From: Campylobacterales bacterium
GTDB taxonomy: Bacteria; Campylobacterota; Campylobacteria; Campylobacterales; Sulfurimonadaceae
DNA: 10,531 nt
Reading direction: 5' to 3'
NCBI GenBank assembly: GCA_016937915.1
Contig: JAFGVR010000132.1
Coordinates: 1-10,531, forward strand
Shown one piece after another: positions 3,579 to 10,531 of this stretch (position 1 is the stretch's first letter; every line of letters begins with the position of its first letter). Made by a program: the position numbers and the translations under genes. The notes beneath the pieces were generated by a model. It was not told where the DNA came from. It saw nothing but the letters and a program-made list of their open reading frames with translations, and made no database searches.

Positions 3579-4700
3579 TTATTTATTTAGTGAGTTTAGA
3601 GATAATATTATCTCATCCATTTTGTCACTTATCTCATTGACATAATCAGAGATGTTATTTATCTCCTGTGCATTCTCTTTTAAGCTTTGTGCATTATCAT
3701 TTATAGACTGGATAAGTACATTTGTAGTAGCTGCTGTTTCACCTAAACTTTTTTGAGTTCTCTCAGCAAGTTTACGCACCTCATCTGCAACAACCGCAAA
3801 CCCTCTTCCATGTTCCCCTGCCCTTGCTGCTTCGATAGCTGCATTTAGAGCTAATAGGTTTGTTTGATCAGCTATATCACCGATAGTTGAGAGGATCTCT
3901 TTTGTCTCATTTGCACTTGAAACAAGAGTTTGAAGACTATCCACCATCTCATTTTCGTTGCTTGATACATGGTGGATCCTATCAACTGCACCTTGAATCA
4001 TATTTTTTAGCTCTTGGATAGTAGTATCAGATATTTTTGAGATAGTTTTATTTAACTCATTTGCAGATTCTCTTATCTGTTGATTTGTTTCATCGTTCTC
4101 TTTTTTCATCCCCTCTAAAGCATCCCCTAAAAGGTTGATATTTTCCAAAACTTCAGCCATTTTTGCCTTAACATTTATGTTTGAGCGAGTTTGAAAATTA
4201 CCTTTTGCGTAAGATTTTAAAGTCCCTATAGCGTTATCTAAGTTTTTCTCAGTTGAGTCTATCATGTTGTTCATACTTTTTCTAAGAACATGAACATATG
4301 GAGTTTGAGAATCTGAAGATATACGGTTTGAAAAATCACCTTTTGAAACTTTATCAGCTATAAGAACCATCTCACCAGCTACTAAAGTATCTTCTTGTAC
4401 AGATTTTTGGTAGCTTTTAACTATAGTATTGAAATTTTTTTCAGCTTCACTAGTTGCATTTTCATTTAAATTCATACGATTTCTTTTAAATTGTATAACT
4501 TCAACAAGTTCAAGACGCTTTTGATCTATAGAACCTCCACCACCAGATGCACTAAAATTTAAGTTCATAAGAGCTAAAGCAACTAAAAATGCACCCCCAT
4601 TTAAACCTAGATGCACCATTTGAGCATCACTCCAAAAAAATGATGACAACGACAAGGCAAACACTGCAACTATGATAATGTTTTTTACTAAATTATTCAT
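3579..4700 (-). CDS. cetA: CetA-like methyl-accepting chemotaxis transducer (energy taxis)
   Basis: Membrane signal transducer expected to pass energy or redox signals to CheA/CheW. Two hydrophobic segments (about residues 8-24 and 30-48) are separated by only a few residues, so there is no periplasmic sensing domain. A GGGG linker follows at 53-56. Two HAMP-like units contain KGDFSNRI (120-127) and KGNFQTRS (166-173). The signalling hairpin is unmistakable: [17 protein letters not shown] (273-289) continuing through [19 protein letters not shown] (290-308). The C-terminal arm after the tip is only about 65-70 residues, so this is a compact receptor of 373 aa; it ends in SLNSLNK without a CheR-docking pentapeptide. 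The preceding PAS gene lies 11 bases upstream, the order seen for cetB-cetA in Campylobacter jejuni. The ATG is preceded by AGAGAG in the gap. Identity as a transducer is certain; the CetA name rests on architecture and neighbour. Confidence 0.85.
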
Positions 4701-4711
4701 CTTAACTCTCT

Positions 4712-5095
4712 TTATCTTAATGTTTTATACAGTTCTTCTGCTTGTTTAACCTCTTCTGCAGATAGTTTACGACGACAAGATAAGTAACACTGTTTTTTTG
4801 TCGCAGCATCTATCATAGAATAAACTGTAGCATACACCCAGTAAAATCCACCATCTTTAGTAGCATTTTTAACATAACCTGTCCAAACTTTACCTTGCTT
4901 AACTGTTGCCCAAAGATCTTTAAACGCAGCTTTTGGCATATCTCTGTGTCTAACTACATTGTGTGGTTTTCCTACAAGCTCTTCAAGTGTATAACCAGCA
5001 ACTTTGCAAAAATCATCATTTGCAAACATTATAATGCCACTTGAATCTGTTTGCGATACCAAAAAGTCATTTGACTTTAAAACATACTCACTCAT
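4712..5095 (-). CDS. cetB: CetB/Aer-like PAS-domain redox sensor
   Basis: Soluble single-PAS protein (127 aa) expected to bind FAD and signal through the CetA-like transducer encoded 11 bases downstream. The PAS core runs from about residue 8 to 108, with [20 protein letters not shown] (25-44), then [18 protein letters not shown] (45-62), and [19 protein letters not shown] (71-89). Arg49, His50 and Asp52 match the Arg-His-x-Asp of E. coli Aer that mutational work links to FAD binding; flavin binding here is inferred from that. A short C-terminal helix (112-127) could contact the partner. The frame opens eight codons earlier at an ATG at 5119, but AGGAG at 5101-5105, five bases before the ATG at 5095, marks the likelier start. 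The missing HAMP and output domains are supplied in trans by CetA. Confidence 0.82.
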
Positions 5096-5100
5096 CTTAA

Positions 5101-5105
5101 CTCCT
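5101..5105 (-). promoter_or_regulatory. Ribosome binding site deciding the cetB start
   Basis: AGGAG on the minus strand with spacer TTAAG precedes the ATG at 5095. The upstream in-frame ATG at 5119 lacks such a site. The same TTAAG spacer also precedes the cetA start (AGAGAG, then TTAAG, then ATG). Confidence 0.6.
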
Positions 5106-5138
5106 AACATAAACTTCATTTTATAAACTATCTTTAAA

Positions 5139-5144
5139 TTTATA
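5139..5144 (-). promoter_or_regulatory. Possible -10 element of the cetBA operon
   Basis: TATAAA on the minus strand follows a T-run (TTTTTTTAG), about 45 bases before the preferred cetB start. No sigma-28 or sigma-54 motif typical of flagellar and chemotaxis genes was recognised, so a housekeeping promoter is the simplest reading. The divergent spacer is only about 150 bases and also carries the miaA promoter. Confidence 0.3.
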
Positions 5145-5225
5145 CTAAAAAAATTAAGCCCTTCTATTTAAAATTGTTCAAATATTAGCAACTTTTATTA
5201 TATGTAACCATTCAATACACCAATT

Positions 5226-5234
5226 TGTTATAAT
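5226..5234 (+). promoter_or_regulatory. Extended -10 sigma-70 promoter of miaA
   Basis: TGTTATAAT is a perfect extended -10 (TGN plus TATAAT). No good -35 is seen 16-18 bases upstream, which an extended -10 can compensate for. Transcription should start near 5240-5242, leaving about 10 bases of leader before the ATG at 5252 and no clear Shine-Dalgarno sequence. Confidence 0.65.
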
Positions 5235-5251
5235 TTTATAAAAAGTATATT

Positions 5252-6142
5252 ATGAAACAATTAGCAATAATCGGACCAACCGCTTCAGGAAAAAGTGATC
5301 TCGCTATAAAAATAGCTCAAAAGATAAACGGTTACATCCTCTCCATAGACTCCCTTAGCATCTACAAAGAGATAGATATAGTCTCAGCCAAACCATCAAA
5401 AGATGAGCTTAGCATCGTAAAACATTTTGGGATAGATGAACTTTACCCAGATGAGTATTTTAGTGTCGATATATTTATAAATCTATATAAAAAAGTGGTA
5501 GATGAGTGTAAAAAAGATGGCAAAAACTTAGTGATAGTTGGGGGTACTTCATTTTATCTAAAATCACTTTTAGATGGACTCTCAGCCATCCCAAACATAA
5601 CTGATGAGACAAAAAAAAGGGTCGATGAGAGACTAAAAAACCTAGATGAGTGTTATAAAACTTTGTATGAAGCAGATGCAGCGTATATGCAAAAAATCTC
5701 ACCAAACGATAGATACCGAATCGAAAAAGCACTACTTATCTATGAAGCATCTAAAATCACCCCAACAAAGTGGTTTGAGCAAAACCCTCCAAAACCTATC
5801 ATAGAAAATCTTCCTATATTTAACATAGCAGTAGATAGAGATGTTTTAAGACAAAGGATAGATGCAAGAACTCAAAAGATGCAAAAGATGGGACTTATAG
5901 ATGAAGTGTGTTATTTGGAGCAAAAATACACCCGTTTGCCAAACTCAATGGCTGCTATAGGGATAGTAGAGGTTCTTGACTTTCTTGATGGAAAAACTAC
6001 AAAAGATGAGATGCTCTCACTCATAGCCACCCACACTGCCCAACTAGCAAAAAGGCAACAAACTTTTAACAATGGGCAGTTTAAAGAGATAATATCTGCA
6101 TCCCTTGAAGAGCTTGAAGAGATCATCTACAAGGTGATATAA
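5252..6142 (+). CDS. miaA: MiaA, tRNA A37 dimethylallyltransferase
   Basis: Cytosolic enzyme that transfers a dimethylallyl group from DMAPP to N6 of A37 in tRNAs reading UNN codons. The 296 residues show the expected order of motifs: the P-loop GPTASGKS (8-15), SIDSLSIYKEIDIVSAKP (31-48) with the conserved Asp33, GGTSFY (98-103, usually GGTGLY), NDRYRIEKAL (152-161), RIDARTQKMQKMGLIDEV (202-219), and the C-terminal AAIGIVEVL and AKRQQTF blocks. Several signature positions are drifted (KHFGID instead of HHLID, DSLS instead of DSMQ), but the fold order and length are normal, so it is probably active. It is the only confidently called plus-strand gene in the window. The promoter is an extended -10 just upstream, giving a nearly leaderless mRNA. 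Its last 20 bases overlap the end of the convergent adenine deaminase gene. Confidence 0.93.
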   Translation: MKQLAIIGPTASGKSDLAIKIAQKINGYILSIDSLSIYKEIDIVSAKPSKDELSIVKHFGIDELYPDEYFSVDIFINLYKKVVDECKKDGKNLVIVGGTSFYLKSLLDGLSAIPNITDETKKRVDERLKNLDECYKTLYEADAAYMQKISPNDRYRIEKALLIYEASKITPTKWFEQNPPKPIIENLPIFNIAVDRDVLRQRIDARTQKMQKMGLIDEVCYLEQKYTRLPNSMAAIGIVEVLDFLDGKTTKDEMLSLIATHTAQLAKRQQTFNNGQFKEIISASLEELEEIIYKVI

Positions 6143-7709
6143 ACTTAAAACTCCTCGCATCAAAAAGCCCTTTATCGCTTAGTTTAAGCTCAGGGATAAC
6201 AAGCAAAGCCATAAAAGATAGGGTCATAAAAGGTGAGCTAAGAGTTGAGCCAAGCTCACCCTTTACAAACGCATCTATAGCCTCATACTCTTTTGCCACT
6301 TTAAACCCATCAACACCACTCATGATGCCACCAAACGGGAGTTTTAGCAGATGCTTTGCATCTTTACCAACTGCCGATACTCCCCCCTTTGCATCTATGA
6401 TGAGATTTACTGCTTGTGCCATATACTCATCATCAGTTCCAACTACCACGATATTGTGAGAATCATGAGCTACACTCGAAGCTATAGCCCCATCTTTGAT
6501 GCCAAAACCTCTGATGTGGGAGATGCCACGGATGGGGCTATCTTCATATCTGTTTATAACAGCTATCTTTAAAACATCATCAAGCTCACCGTGGTCAATC
6601 TTCTCTTTTGTGATAAGTTCACGATCTATTGCTTGTATCACCTCCATAGCTTCACACTTAGGGGTGTAAAAATCTTTTGCACTCTTTTTTTTGGTGTTAA
6701 ATTTGTTGATAGGTTTCTCATCTACAGATGCTATCTTTAGATCACCATCTTCATAAACAACCACCCCATCTATGCAAGTTTTTAAAACATCAAATGCATC
6801 GTCCACCACTATAAAATCAGCCGCATCTCCAACTCTAAGGGTTCCAACATCAAGAGAATAGTGTTTTATAGGGTTTATACAAGCGATTTGTAAAACCTTA
6901 AAAATATCGTGTCCATTTTTTATGGAGCGTTTTACAAGCTCATTTATATGTCCATTTGCAAGGTCGTTTGGATGCCTATCATCACTGCAAAACATCAAGT
7001 TTTCATAGTGTTCATCTATGAGTGGATGCAACGCCTCATAGTTTTTCGCAGCCGAACCCTCACGGATAATGATCTTCATCCCCTTTTGAAGTTTCTCTAA
7101 AGCCTCTTCGTAACTAAACGCTTCATGGTCAGTTGAGATACCAGAGTCTATGTATTTTTTAAGCTCATCACCACTTAGAGCTGGTGCGTGTCCATCTATG
7201 GGTTTGTTGTATTTGTTAGCTAAAGCTATCTTCTCTAACATATCTGCATCACCCGCTATCACACCTGGGAAATTCATCACCTCACTCAAAAACTTTATCT
7301 CTTTACTAGCCAAAAGTTTCTCAACATCACTAGCATCAAGTTTTGCTCCACTTGTCTCAAAAGGGGTAGCTGGTACACAAGGAGATGCACCAAAGTAAAA
7401 CTTAAAAGGGGTCTTTTTAGCGTTTTGCATCATAAACTCCACACCACTAAGCCCTAAAACATTTGCTATCTCATGAGGGTCACAAACAGATGCCACGCTC
7501 CCATGCCCAACTGCTAAGCGGGAAAACTCACTAGGGATGAGCATCGAACTCTCCATGTGGATGTGTGCATCTATAAAACCTGGGAGTATATAACTATCAA
7601 ACTCCCCATCTATCTCTGTTATAGATGCTATCACGCCATCTTCTACAACTACCTCAACTGGTTTTATCTCTTTGTTTATTATATCTATCAAGTTTGATTT
7701 TAGTTTCAT
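6123..7709 (-). CDS. ade: Adenine deaminase (AdeC type)
   Basis: Amidohydrolase-superfamily metalloenzyme converting adenine to hypoxanthine and ammonia in the cytosol, for purine salvage. Visible in 528 residues are PGFIDAHIHMESS (43-55) with the HxH metal ligands His49 and His51, CDPHEIANVLG (76-86), the Glu143 region SEVMNFPG, DGHAPALSG (172-180), STDHEAF (192-198), SDDRHPNDLANGH (242-254) and the domain-closing VGTLRVGDAADFIVVDD (288-304). The C-terminal AdeC domain (from about 370) includes HIRGFGIKDGAIASSVAHDS. The length is slightly below the usual 550-600. Ribosome site AAGG lies six bases before the ATG. The gene follows the nuclease of the defence pair by 33 bases on the same strand without a terminator, and ends 20 bases inside miaA. 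In Campylobacterota it may also recycle the adenine released by the aminodeoxyfutalosine menaquinone route (inference). Confidence 0.92.
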   Translation of the reverse strand: MKLKSNLIDIINKEIKPVEVVVEDGVIASITEIDGEFDSYILPGFIDAHIHMESSMLIPSEFSRLAVGHGSVASVCDPHEIANVLGLSGVEFMMQNAKKTPFKFYFGASPCVPATPFETSGAKLDASDVEKLLASKEIKFLSEVMNFPGVIAGDADMLEKIALANKYNKPIDGHAPALSGDELKKYIDSGISTDHEAFSYEEALEKLQKGMKIIIREGSAAKNYEALHPLIDEHYENLMFCSDDRHPNDLANGHINELVKRSIKNGHDIFKVLQIACINPIKHYSLDVGTLRVGDAADFIVVDDAFDVLKTCIDGVVVYEDGDLKIASVDEKPINKFNTKKKSAKDFYTPKCEAMEVIQAIDRELITKEKIDHGELDDVLKIAVINRYEDSPIRGISHIRGFGIKDGAIASSVAHDSHNIVVVGTDDEYMAQAVNLIIDAKGGVSAVGKDAKHLLKLPFGGIMSGVDGFKVAKEYEAIDAFVKGELGSTLSSPFMTLSFMALLVIPELKLSDKGLFDARSFKFISPCR

Positions 7710-7742: not shown

Positions 7743-8519
7743 CTAAAAAATTGAAGAATCATAATTAAATTGCTTTTTCACAATAAACTGAAAAAAACCA
7801 TATTTCTTAAGTTCCTCTATTCGATTTTTATCTTTTAAAAAAAGTGCTAATGATTTTTGATCTTGTTTTTTAATCTCTTTGGCAAATTCAACAAAAGTGT
7901 TGTAATGTTTTGTCAATATCTCAATACGACATACCTTTGCATTATCATTTGGATGAGGGTAACTCTCACAATATCCCAAACCAAATGTTTTTATCATTGT
8001 TTCACAAATTTTATATTCATAGCTATCTTTTGGAATACCCTGTTTTCGTTTTAATTCCAATATGCCGCCTTGAGCGGTTTGTCTAAAAGCCAATTCAAAA
8101 AAATCTAATGGATTTTTTTCTGTTGGATTGAAAAGTAGAGGTTGCTCATTGTTCGTTTCAGCTACTTCTTTAGCATTAGTTGCTTTTTGCAAAATATCAA
8201 GTAGTGGAAAATCATTTTTTTTATAAGTAATATTACATAAACTACACATTAAAATATAATTTTCAGGTTTGCATTTCAGATTAGGGTACATATCTTGATC
8301 TTTAGGTCTAAAATGATCAAGTGTTGCCGTATGAGTTTTATTTGGAGTATTTGTCAATTCTACTTCACATATGGGGCATTTATTGTTTGAAACATTCTGC
8401 TGTAATGCTGTAAAACCAGACCAATAATCATCACATTTATTTTCAGTGAATTTTGCTTTAAAAATATTTACACAATTTTGATATTCTGGATGTGTAAAAT
8501 AACATCTCATATCAATCAT
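7743..8519 (-). CDS. HNH endonuclease, Septu PtuB-like
   Basis: Predicted DNA-cutting effector of a two-gene ATPase/nuclease defence module. The HNH domain with zinc ribbon lies at about residues 48-106: KCPICEVE (Cys48, Cys51), LDHFRPK (Asp68, His69, the expected catalytic pair), ENYILMCSLCNITYKKND (Asn87, Cys92, Cys95, Asn96). Downstream, PLLFNPTEKNPLDFF (128-141) and a Gly-Gly turn (151-152) recall the C-terminal part of PtuB proteins, which also have LxNP...P and a G-I/L strand. The total is 258 aa. The frame extends seven codons further to a GTG at 8540, but AAGGA at 8528-8532 better serves the ATG at 8519; an ATG at 8510 is a third option. The chosen start overlaps the end of the ATPase gene by eight bases, indicating coupled synthesis. 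The nuclease fold is clear; the Septu assignment is from pairing and pattern. Confidence 0.82.
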   Translation of the reverse strand: MIDMRCYFTHPEYQNCVNIFKAKFTENKCDDYWSGFTALQQNVSNNKCPICEVELTNTPNKTHTATLDHFRPKDQDMYPNLKCKPENYILMCSLCNITYKKNDFPLLDILQKATNAKEVAETNNEQPLLFNPTEKNPLDFFELAFRQTAQGGILELKRKQGIPKDSYEYKICETMIKTFGLGYCESYPHPNDNAKVCRIEILTKHYNTFVEFAKEIKKQDQKSLALFLKDKNRIEELKKYGFFQFIVKKQFNYDSSIF

Positions 8520-10531
8520 TAAACAGATCCTTAAACTCACCTAATAATTCATCCATTTCATTTTCTGAAATTTCGGTTAGTTTATCAAAATCTATCTCTT
8601 TATTTTCTTGAATGAACTTTAAAAATCGCAAATAGTGTCTATCATAAATAAAATTACTTGCTACAGTTTTACCTAATTCAATTTCTAAATTATCTAATGT
8701 TGTTTTTTCATCCTCAGATAAATTATCTTTATTTTTAAGAGAAAACAATTTAGTTATCTTCTCTTGCATACTTTTTCCAACTAAGGAGCTAATTCTAGGA
8801 TAATTTAAAAGTGTTGCAGATACATCAAGATATTTTGTACCTATTCCTGATGTATCAACCATATCATTGTCAACACTGATTTTTCCTATCTCGTCGCTCT
8901 CTCTATCAAGCATCAAAAGAGGATTATGGGTAGCAATAATTATTTGTATATTTTGATTAAGTTTTCTAATATTATCTACAAAATTGATTTGCCATTCTGC
9001 ATGTAATGAATTTTCAGGTTCATCCATCATTAAAATATAAGGTTTGTTTTCTTTTAGTAGAATTCTTAGAAAGATAATTAAAATTTGCTTCTCCCCTGAT
9101 GATAAATCCAATACATCAAGTTCATTATTATGGTTTGAAATACTAAACGATTTTTCTATAGATTCAAGATTTATTTTTTTACTTGTATCCTTAAACATAC
9201 TATCTATGATAGTTCTAAAATCATTAAGTGGTTTATAAATTTCATTCTTAATAGTTGTTTCATTTTCTTTTAGCTGTTGTATTTTTGGAGCTTCTTCAAC
9301 TTTTCCATAAGTTATATCTTCTAATATTCTTGAAATTTCAGCTTTATTAGAACCGTTTTTTTCATCAAACTTTTTATTAAGTTTTATTTGGTAAGCATCA
9401 AATTTAGGCATCAATTTCATTAGTTCAGTATCTAATAGTGATAACTCCTTATCACAATTTTCTTTACATTCAACTACAGACTCCGAAACAGTATCAAAAG
9501 TATCAATAAGAATAATATCAATGTTTTGTAGATGAGCATTATCTTCAATAACAATATCTTTATTCTCACCATTTTCATATACTTTATTAATAGTAGTTTT
9601 AATATTGGGATTTTTAAATTTTTGTAAAATAGATCGTTTATTATAAAATTGAGCTTCTAAAAGTTTTAACAAACTTGATTTTCCACTACCATTTTTACCA
9701 ATCAGTATATTTGTATCTTTATTGAGGTTCCATTCTAAATTTCTATTACCATAAATATTTTCTATCTCAACTTTTTTTATACTTATTTTTAGTGTATTAG
9801 ATATCTCTTTAGCACCTGCTTTTACAAGATAATCCTTTATTTTGCTTTTAAATATTTTAAATTCATCTTCACTGCTCTCTTTAGGTATAAATCTATTAAA
9901 TATATTATGAATTAAGTTTTTTCTGATTTTTGATGACCCTTCACCTTTTTGTTCAAAAGCATTTAACCAATCTTTCTGACAGTTTTTCATAAAACCATCT
10001 CGTATATATCTTAATAAGGCTGTTGAAAAATTTTGTTTAATTTGATTTTGAGCATAGTAAACTTCTGAATTTAATTGATTAGGAGTTTGTAAAAAATTAT
10101 TTATCTCTTGCATTATAAGTGTATGATATTCCAAAATAGGTTTTAAATAACGATATTCACCCTCTAATATAATCATTCTTTTTGTAAATGCTTTTACAAT
10201 AGTCCAGTGTTCATTTGCTACATAACTCTCCCATTTTTTTAAAAAATCGGTAGTATTTAAATTCAAAAACAGTGTTTCAAAGTCATATTCCAAATCAATA
10301 AGATTTTCTTGATGTATTGAAAACTCTTCTTGAATGGTTTTAAAAAGTTTTGTAAGCTCTTTTTTTGTTGCATCGTTAGCTGTTTTATCTAACTCAGCTA
10401 AATAGTATTTTTGGTTTGTAGCAAAATTAAATTGAATATTGGAATCTTTTAATGCATTCTCAACATTGCCAACCCTTCTATTGAGTGCTGATTTATAATC
10501 TTTTACTTCCAATTTATCAGCTTTAGAAAAA
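8512..10531 (-). CDS. SMC/ABC-type ATPase, Septu PtuA-like, with long N-terminal extension (5' end outside window)
   Basis: Predicted sensor or regulator ATPase partnering the HNH nuclease. Counting from the TTG at 10512 as residue 1, the ATP-binding core starts near 243 and has Walker A IGKNGSGKSS (271-280), an ABC-like signature LSSGEKQ (470-476), Walker B ILMMDEPENSLH (493-504) with Asp497 and Glu498, and the switch His in ATHNP (527-531). A coiled-coil-like insert (about 345-435) separates Walker A from the signature. Residues 1-240 are charged, helix-rich and unfamiliar to me. The TTG has no good ribosome site, and the frame stays open without a stop to the window edge (six further complete codons reading FSKADK), so the gene is almost certainly truncated here and the extension is longer. 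Base composition is very AT-rich (bases 9601-9660 hold 11 G/C of 60, against 23 of 60 at 7201-7260). OLD-like or other RecF-type ATPases are alternatives. Confidence 0.83.
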   Translation of the reverse strand, partial: FSKADKLEVKDYKSALNRRVGNVENALKDSNIQFNFATNQKYYLAELDKTANDATKKELTKLFKTIQEEFSIHQENLIDLEYDFETLFLNLNTTDFLKKWESYVANEHWTIVKAFTKRMIILEGEYRYLKPILEYHTLIMQEINNFLQTPNQLNSEVYYAQNQIKQNFSTALLRYIRDGFMKNCQKDWLNAFEQKGEGSSKIRKNLIHNIFNRFIPKESSEDEFKIFKSKIKDYLVKAGAKEISNTLKISIKKVEIENIYGNRNLEWNLNKDTNILIGKNGSGKSSLLKLLEAQFYNKRSILQKFKNPNIKTTINKVYENGENKDIVIEDNAHLQNIDIILIDTFDTVSESVVECKENCDKELSLLDTELMKLMPKFDAYQIKLNKKFDEKNGSNKAEISRILEDITYGKVEEAPKIQQLKENETTIKNEIYKPLNDFRTIIDSMFKDTSKKINLESIEKSFSISNHNNELDVLDLSSGEKQILIIFLRILLKENKPYILMMDEPENSLHAEWQINFVDNIRKLNQNIQIIIATHNPLLMLDRESDEIGKISVDNDMVDTSGIGTKYLDVSATLLNYPRISSLVGKSMQEKITKLFSLKNKDNLSEDEKTTLDNLEIELGKTVASNFIYDRHYLRFLKFIQENKEIDFDKLTEISENEMDELLGEFKDLFND

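Follow-up and report, generated by a model that had tools for sequence, protein, structure and literature searches.

In animals, dynamins such as Mx are antiviral. In bacteria, DynA of Bacillus subtilis delays the lysis of infected cells (PMC8844932, in extract). Several bacterial systems that couple an ATPase with a nuclease have also been characterised, as far as extracts of the reports describe them. In PARIS, a hexamer of AriA sequesters AriB, and recognition of a phage protein releases AriB, which cuts tRNA-Lys (PMC11455837). PtuAB of retron Eco7 depletes tRNA-Tyr, whereas for retron Eco4 a tRNA target is considered unlikely, and a Septu system that cuts nicked DNA is cited in the same source (PMC11555353); another Septu requires its Walker A/B and HNH residues and cleaves tRNA-Tyr (PMC13096335). 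The route by which a trigger reaches ATPase scaffolds of the AriA/PtuA type is known in few cases. The present report concerns a locus of a Campylobacterales bacterium (Sulfurimonadaceae; assembly GCA_016937915.1). The window analysed is the whole of contig JAFGVR010000132.1 (10,531 bases; contig C26 of genome G000), which belongs to a genome bin of 1.51 Mb in 270 contigs that is 62.9% complete. The locus is, with fair probability, a two-gene anti-phage system. Its genes, which overlap at their ends, encode a fusion protein of ~990 residues (dynamin-like head, stalk and AriA-like ABC ATPase) and an HNH protein that is PtuB-like; the ATPase would hold the HNH protein, the head would act as sensor or switch, and infection would free or activate the nuclease.

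The ATPase frame (8512-10530, minus strand, 672 codons) has no start codon ahead of the contig end, and the first ~306 codons of the gene are found on contig C239 of the same genome. The C239 frame ends in NAIETIFLNG and that of the window opens with FSKADKLE; because the full-length relative L019 has eight residues between these two points, we infer that ~24 nucleotides (nt) are missing between the contigs, the ends of which share no exact overlap. PADLOC and Pfam matches to the ATPase of the window start only at residue ~241-250, and its first ~248 residues matched no family in either library. These residues are the end of a GTPase domain and a stalk, not part of a PtuA protein, and the complete fusion polypeptide begins, as modelled, with a dynamin-like GTPase head and a helical stalk that together place ~560 residues ahead of the ATPase. 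The order of ATPase gene followed by HNH gene is repeated in L003/L018, L004, L019 and L020; L003, from genome G156 of the same genus and on one contig with L018, extends upstream beyond the truncation point of the window. Contigs break inside the fusion gene in three bins of the genus (G000 at C26/C239, G156 at C3 and G187 at C50), as if assembly fails there.

In fold matches the GTPase head spans residues ~19-394. The head and stalk were modelled with a predicted local distance difference test (pLDDT) score of 91, and the best matching folds were those of SynDLP, Fzo1, BDLP and IniA, with the helical part less close; structure re-alignments (VIA) for the head and the HNH protein cover Foldseek's own matches only. 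The head thus has a dynamin-type fold and may hydrolyse GTP and self-assemble. The GTPase motifs are kept in nearly all aligned rows, and a glutamate is present at the G3 region in 42 of 63. A sequence-profile search of the PDB with the GTPase family gave only weak matches, mostly at the P-loop. No strongly hydrophobic 19-residue stretch, and hence no transmembrane-like segment, was found in the head and stalk of L019, as judged by hydrophobicity only, with paddles and loops not looked at. Since the head is a complete GTPase with kept motifs and with homologues in a stand-alone family, selection seems to act on it.

The two genes that follow are those which the first-pass annotation had described as an ATPase and an HNH nuclease encoded back to back with overlapping ends, and both frames are indeed present. 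The HNH frame occupies 7743-8540, its most likely start is the ATG at 8519, and ATGATTGA overlaps the ATPase stop by 8 nt. The catalytic motifs of both proteins are intact, as had been proposed. In the ATPase these are Walker A (GKNGSGKS, 9699-9676), the signature (LSSGEKQ, 9105-9085), Walker B (ILMMDEPE, 9036-9013) and the H-loop (THNP), all of which are kept in aligned relatives; the HNH protein has the cysteine pairs CPIC and CSLC and the motif DHFRPK, with the Cys, DH and N positions likewise kept. PADLOC, Pfam, profile and structure matches place the pair beyond chance. The HNH protein belongs to the PtuB family by fold and by PADLOC, with no significant match in a PDB sequence-profile search, and 27 HNH pattern matches on viral contigs yielded no confirmed relative. 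AriA is the best-scoring known family for the ATPase domain. In PADLOC it reaches 144.9 bits with AriA vs 82 bits with PtuA, both significant, and in the PDB profile search 78.6 bits with AriA vs 38 bits with PtuA of Septu; its placement in a tree is weak. The assignment of the pair to the PtuA-PtuB or retron-effector type therefore stands for the layout and for the nuclease, which PADLOC recognises as PtuB; a plain PtuA identity is not supported for the ATPase, which ranks highest with AriA and has a dynamin-like module in front. "Septu-like ATPase plus HNH" is an incomplete name for the locus, the key domain of which lies mostly outside the window.

The proposed mechanism builds on the domain order, the nucleotide-binding and nuclease motifs, the head and nuclease folds, the scattered distribution and the insertion, as established from sequence and models. 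By analogy with AriA, which holds AriB, the ATPase domains may oligomerise and hold the HNH subunit, and the dynamin-like head would be an added sensor or threshold switch. Infection would alter the nucleotide state of the head, upon which the ATPase scaffold may free or activate the HNH nuclease, and cleavage of tRNA or DNA would then stop the infected cell and abort the infection. The assignment of holding to the ABC ATPase part, and of an additional sensing or threshold step to the head, follows the published behaviour of retron Eco7, Septu and PARIS. In addition, TPR repeats take this N-terminal position ahead of the PtuA-type ATPase in relatives from the same taxonomic order (L131, L134), which fits the idea of exchangeable sensors. 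Carried on one chain with such a scaffold, a dynamin-like GTPase would give it a ready-made sensor or threshold switch.

Greater novelty attaches to the dynamin-like family. A scan of one genome per species (84,980 species) with an alignment of the N-terminal part yielded 102 confirmed loci; 80 were kept. Only three of the 80 are fused to an ATPase, namely L018 (truncated, from a Sulfurimonas bin), L019 (Campylobacterales bin BB8) and L020 (a Sulfurovum bin); the rest either comprise only head and stalk or run off a contig, for which reason a few (L077, L086) cannot be judged. Where both frame ends lie within the locus (n = 74, mechanical starts), 63 frames encode 746-833 amino acids (aa), ten are shorter and one reaches 1,615 aa. 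The stand-alone proteins, where judged, mostly end ~150-160 residues past the EHW motif. According to sequence records, the family occurs in Proteobacteria, Chloroflexi, Verrucomicrobia, Acidobacteriaceae, Streptomyces, Bacillus, Clostridium and others, and three genomes carry two copies each (L029/L042, L039/L067, L081/L083). None of the representatives scanned matched a Pfam, NCBIfam or PADLOC family above cut-off. A search of plasmids returned a Rhodococcus protein (L012) that consists of the N-terminal part without the ATPase.

In 19 of 81 stand-alone loci, a frame of 140 aa or more on the same strand starts between 40 nt before and 100 nt after the stop of the GTPase gene, not all of these frames being real partners. 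Eight of the 19 overlap the GTPase gene by four bases (mechanical start). These encode a protein with a caspase domain (L052, PF00656), SduA of Shedu (L092, PF14082), a conserved protein of ~489 aa with a C-terminal SEC-C motif, as scanned in L071 (L071, L085, L087, L093 and L094), and, in L097, a protein of 150 aa that has no family. Type I restriction clusters lie no more than six genes away in 7, 5 and 5 loci, with one R- and one S-cluster member confirmed, and BREX is represented, in the same range, by BrxC at L055 and BrxL at L073. PADLOC was applied to 98 neighbouring proteins. Of these, 97 were drawn from 151 that are no shorter than 200 aa and encoded no more than two genes away (the others were dropped for length limits and by the author's cut), and one was the caspase of L064, which was added knowingly. 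Among the 25 most frequent of 140 models, there were three matches to type I methyltransferase and one each to SduA, BREX PbeC, HerA and PDC candidates. As raw counts, these neighbourhoods suggest a role in defence. Some neighbours are plainly not defence genes but housekeeping or transposon genes, such as GlfT2 (L058/L068) and IstB (L078), and four of ten neighbours scanned with Pfam had no family.

It is therefore put forward only tentatively, at somewhat less than an even chance, that the head and stalk represent a family of soluble dynamin-like GTPases, widespread and undescribed, which serves bacterial immunity as a general infection switch with exchangeable effectors. These would be an AriA-like ATPase with a PtuB-type HNH protein (fused, in Campylobacterota) or, as the product of an overlapping gene, a caspase-like peptidase, a Shedu nuclease or a SEC-C protein, making the family in logic a bacterial counterpart of dynamin immunity of the Mx/GBP type. 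Since the GTPase also occurs by itself next to genes for other effectors, it would be a portable part, and with a nuclease-coupled bacterial dynamin it becomes directly testable whether dynamin-based immunity is ancient. Eleos, with LeoA and LeoBC, is another defence system of the dynamin type; the name Eleos occurs in PMC11811056.

Viral contigs yielded a single relative of the stalk, L016, an IMG/VR contig on which a stand-alone GTPase (3681-6026) lies beside genes that resemble phage head genes by eye. In L054, L056, L063 and L069, the GTPase gene is followed by an opposite-strand gene for a conserved protein of 209-269 aa, phage-structural-like by eye, and the stand-alone GTPase of these five loci is perhaps carried by prophages. 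On an Agrobacterium plasmid (L014, 5982-7778), a 598-aa hypothetical protein is encoded directly behind the GTPase; it is nitrilase-like by eye and has no Pfam or PADLOC match.

Three other readings of the window locus have been weighed. It might be an ordinary Septu or retron-type PtuAB pair with an N-terminal extension devoid of a regulatory role, as the PtuB type of the HNH protein would allow; moreover, true PtuA-PtuB pairs from the same taxonomic order have TPR repeats before the ATPase (L131 and L134, with a separate frame in L132), so that N-terminal additions are not unusual. This is unlikely, given that the ATPase is nearer to AriA than to PtuA and that the extension is an entire GTPase with homologues that stand alone. 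Plain Septu and plain retron readings hold only in part, given the AriA-like ATPase, the GTPase module in front and the absence of a matched reverse transcriptase among the ten window proteins scanned.

The best folds for the head are membrane-remodelling dynamins, and the delay of lysis by DynA in infected cells is a precedent (PMC8844932, in extract) for a head that is a membrane-bound dynamin, engaged in tethering, repair or lysis delay, with the ATPase-HNH part as a second, separate activity. The lack of a transmembrane-like segment in L019, seen by hydrophobicity, speaks against such a head, and we regard it as quite unlikely. An addiction module, or one that excludes plasmids or other elements rather than phages, would agree with the scattered sites of the gene pair, with the repeated IS66-like genes (by eye) that flank L020 and with retron Eco7, in which PtuAB behaves as a toxin that other components hold (PMC11555353, in extract). 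It is nevertheless improbable, as some stand-alone relatives have, by raw count, genes of BREX, type I restriction, Shedu or caspases for neighbours.

The pair had also been said to be richer in A+T than ade and to look inserted between housekeeping genes, and both statements were borne out. The G+C content is 0.254 for the ATPase and 0.282 for the HNH gene vs 0.399 for ade, with 0.340 for the remaining window. The minus strand carries ftsW and genes for a UbiA-type prenyltransferase and for chemotaxis and PAS proteins, then ade and the ATPase-HNH pair, with miaA on the plus strand; ade and miaA overlap tail to tail by 20 nt (6123-6142). Upstream of the GTPase part, C239 carries a gene that by eye is aguB-like. 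Such a gene is matched in 104 of 135 genomes of the genus, G000 included, and nine relatives' loci were examined (L120-L128). It adjoins miaA in two of the nine (ends overlapping by 8 in L121, an 8-base gap in L124) and lies 0.4 and 1 kb from it, with another frame between, in two more (L126, L128); in the other five, different genes come next, with no miaA within 1.5 kb. The GTPase-ATPase gene, the HNH gene and ade thus occupy the space between two genes that are contiguous in some relatives, which supports, at the level of gene order, the pair and ade as an inserted block. The aguB-miaA interval is variable, being empty in L121 and L124 and holding one other frame in L126 and L128, and may repeatedly take up genes. 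Adenine deaminase is encoded in only 11 of the 135 genomes, and the flanks examined around ade in the other ten had no match to the pair or to miaA, so the pair is not conserved beside ade. The patchy ade seems to have arrived together with the block that holds the pair, or to have landed in it.

The stalk is present in two of the 135 genomes of the genus, in addition to G187, whose contig begins inside the ATPase, and in one of 397 genomes of a phylum sample, that one being G000. A search of the taxonomic order matched eight of 398 genomes, with the stalk in G000 and G658 and the ATPase part only in the other six; the G658 locus is identical to L019 across 5,181 bases. Fused copies were found only in Campylobacterota and in four settings: between the aguB-like gene and ade-miaA (G000), ahead of a cobalamin-type methyltransferase gene (L003 and L004, frames read by eye), behind a helix-turn-helix gene (HTH_3; L019) and between repeated IS66-like genes (L020). 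A single origin of the fusion was considered. The HNH tree is compatible with it (one change, support 90/93, 86% of bootstrap trees) and the ATPase tree is ambiguous (two changes; one change in 16% of bootstrap trees), and because the latter is unclear a single origin is not claimed.

Table 1. Features of the locus and its flanks, in window coordinates
Feature	Position	Strand	Basis or remark
miaA, IPP transferase	5252..6142	+	Flanking gene; contacts aguB-like gene in some relatives
ade, adenine deaminase (TIGR01178)	6123..7709	-	Flanking gene, within the block separating the aguB-like gene from miaA
PtuB-type HNH nuclease gene	7743..8519	-	PADLOC, Foldseek fold match
Dynamin-like GTPase/ABC ATPase fusion gene, 3' two thirds	8512..10531	-	Full-length relatives L019 (992 aa), L020 (993 aa)
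ABC/SMC-type ATPase domain, AriA/PtuA type, closest to AriA	8512..9786	-	PADLOC, Pfam, PDB profile
Helical stalk with EHWTIVKAF, EYRYLKPI and GEGSSKIRK stretches	9787..10308	-	Common to the stand-alone GTPase family
C-terminal end of GTPase domain, from G4 motif FSKAD (10530-10516)	10309..10530	-	Aligned to L019 residues 321-394

Among the matches listed in a search of open-licence PubMed Central literature (titles and starts of abstracts), none joined a dynamin or GTPase to PtuA, AriA or HNH. Septu-like loci from the same taxonomic order (L131, L132, L134 and L135) have other sensor parts: they encode a PtuA-type ATPase and a PtuB-type HNH protein, with TPR repeats ahead of the ATPase; in L131 and L135 a STAND-like NTPase (by eye) is also ahead of it. 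In L131 the HNH frame is short, and another gene set of similar make-up appears to begin behind the first. With Septu and the PtuAB pair of type I-A retrons, the window locus shares an ATPase gene followed by an HNH gene with overlapping ends, and the PtuB HNH fold. It differs in an ATPase that scores lower with PtuA than with AriA models, and in a length of 992/993 aa with GTPase and stalk (L019/L020) vs ~450-550 aa for the Septu ATPase (PDB chains of 456-552). No reverse transcriptase was matched by Pfam among the ten proteins of the window, while C239 and the flanks of L019/L020 were read as open reading frames only and retron RNA was not searched. Labelling such loci Septu from the ATPase-HNH pair alone conceals their defining domain.

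The idea of a GTPase switch with exchangeable effectors is shared with the DO-GTPase/GAP1 conflict systems (Kaur et al. 2020, PMC7159879, in extract), as is the glutamate at the G3 region; no DO-GTPase was matched in Pfam at E 0.05 in four proteins scanned, the coverage of all DO-GTPases by the library being unchecked, and no GAP1 partner was recognised. The likeness to PARIS lies in the AriA-type ATPase domain. The partner here is a PtuB-type HNH protein, in contrast to the Toprim nuclease AriB, which the same library recognises as a neighbour in L136 (124.7 bits), and a dynamin-like head has been added. Finally, bacterial dynamin-like proteins (SynDLP, BDLP, IniA, paired DLPs and DynA, the last not itself compared) share the fold of the head and, less closely, the helical part, whereas the head described here is without a transmembrane segment (L019) and has nuclease or protease partners, either in fusion or from neighbouring genes.
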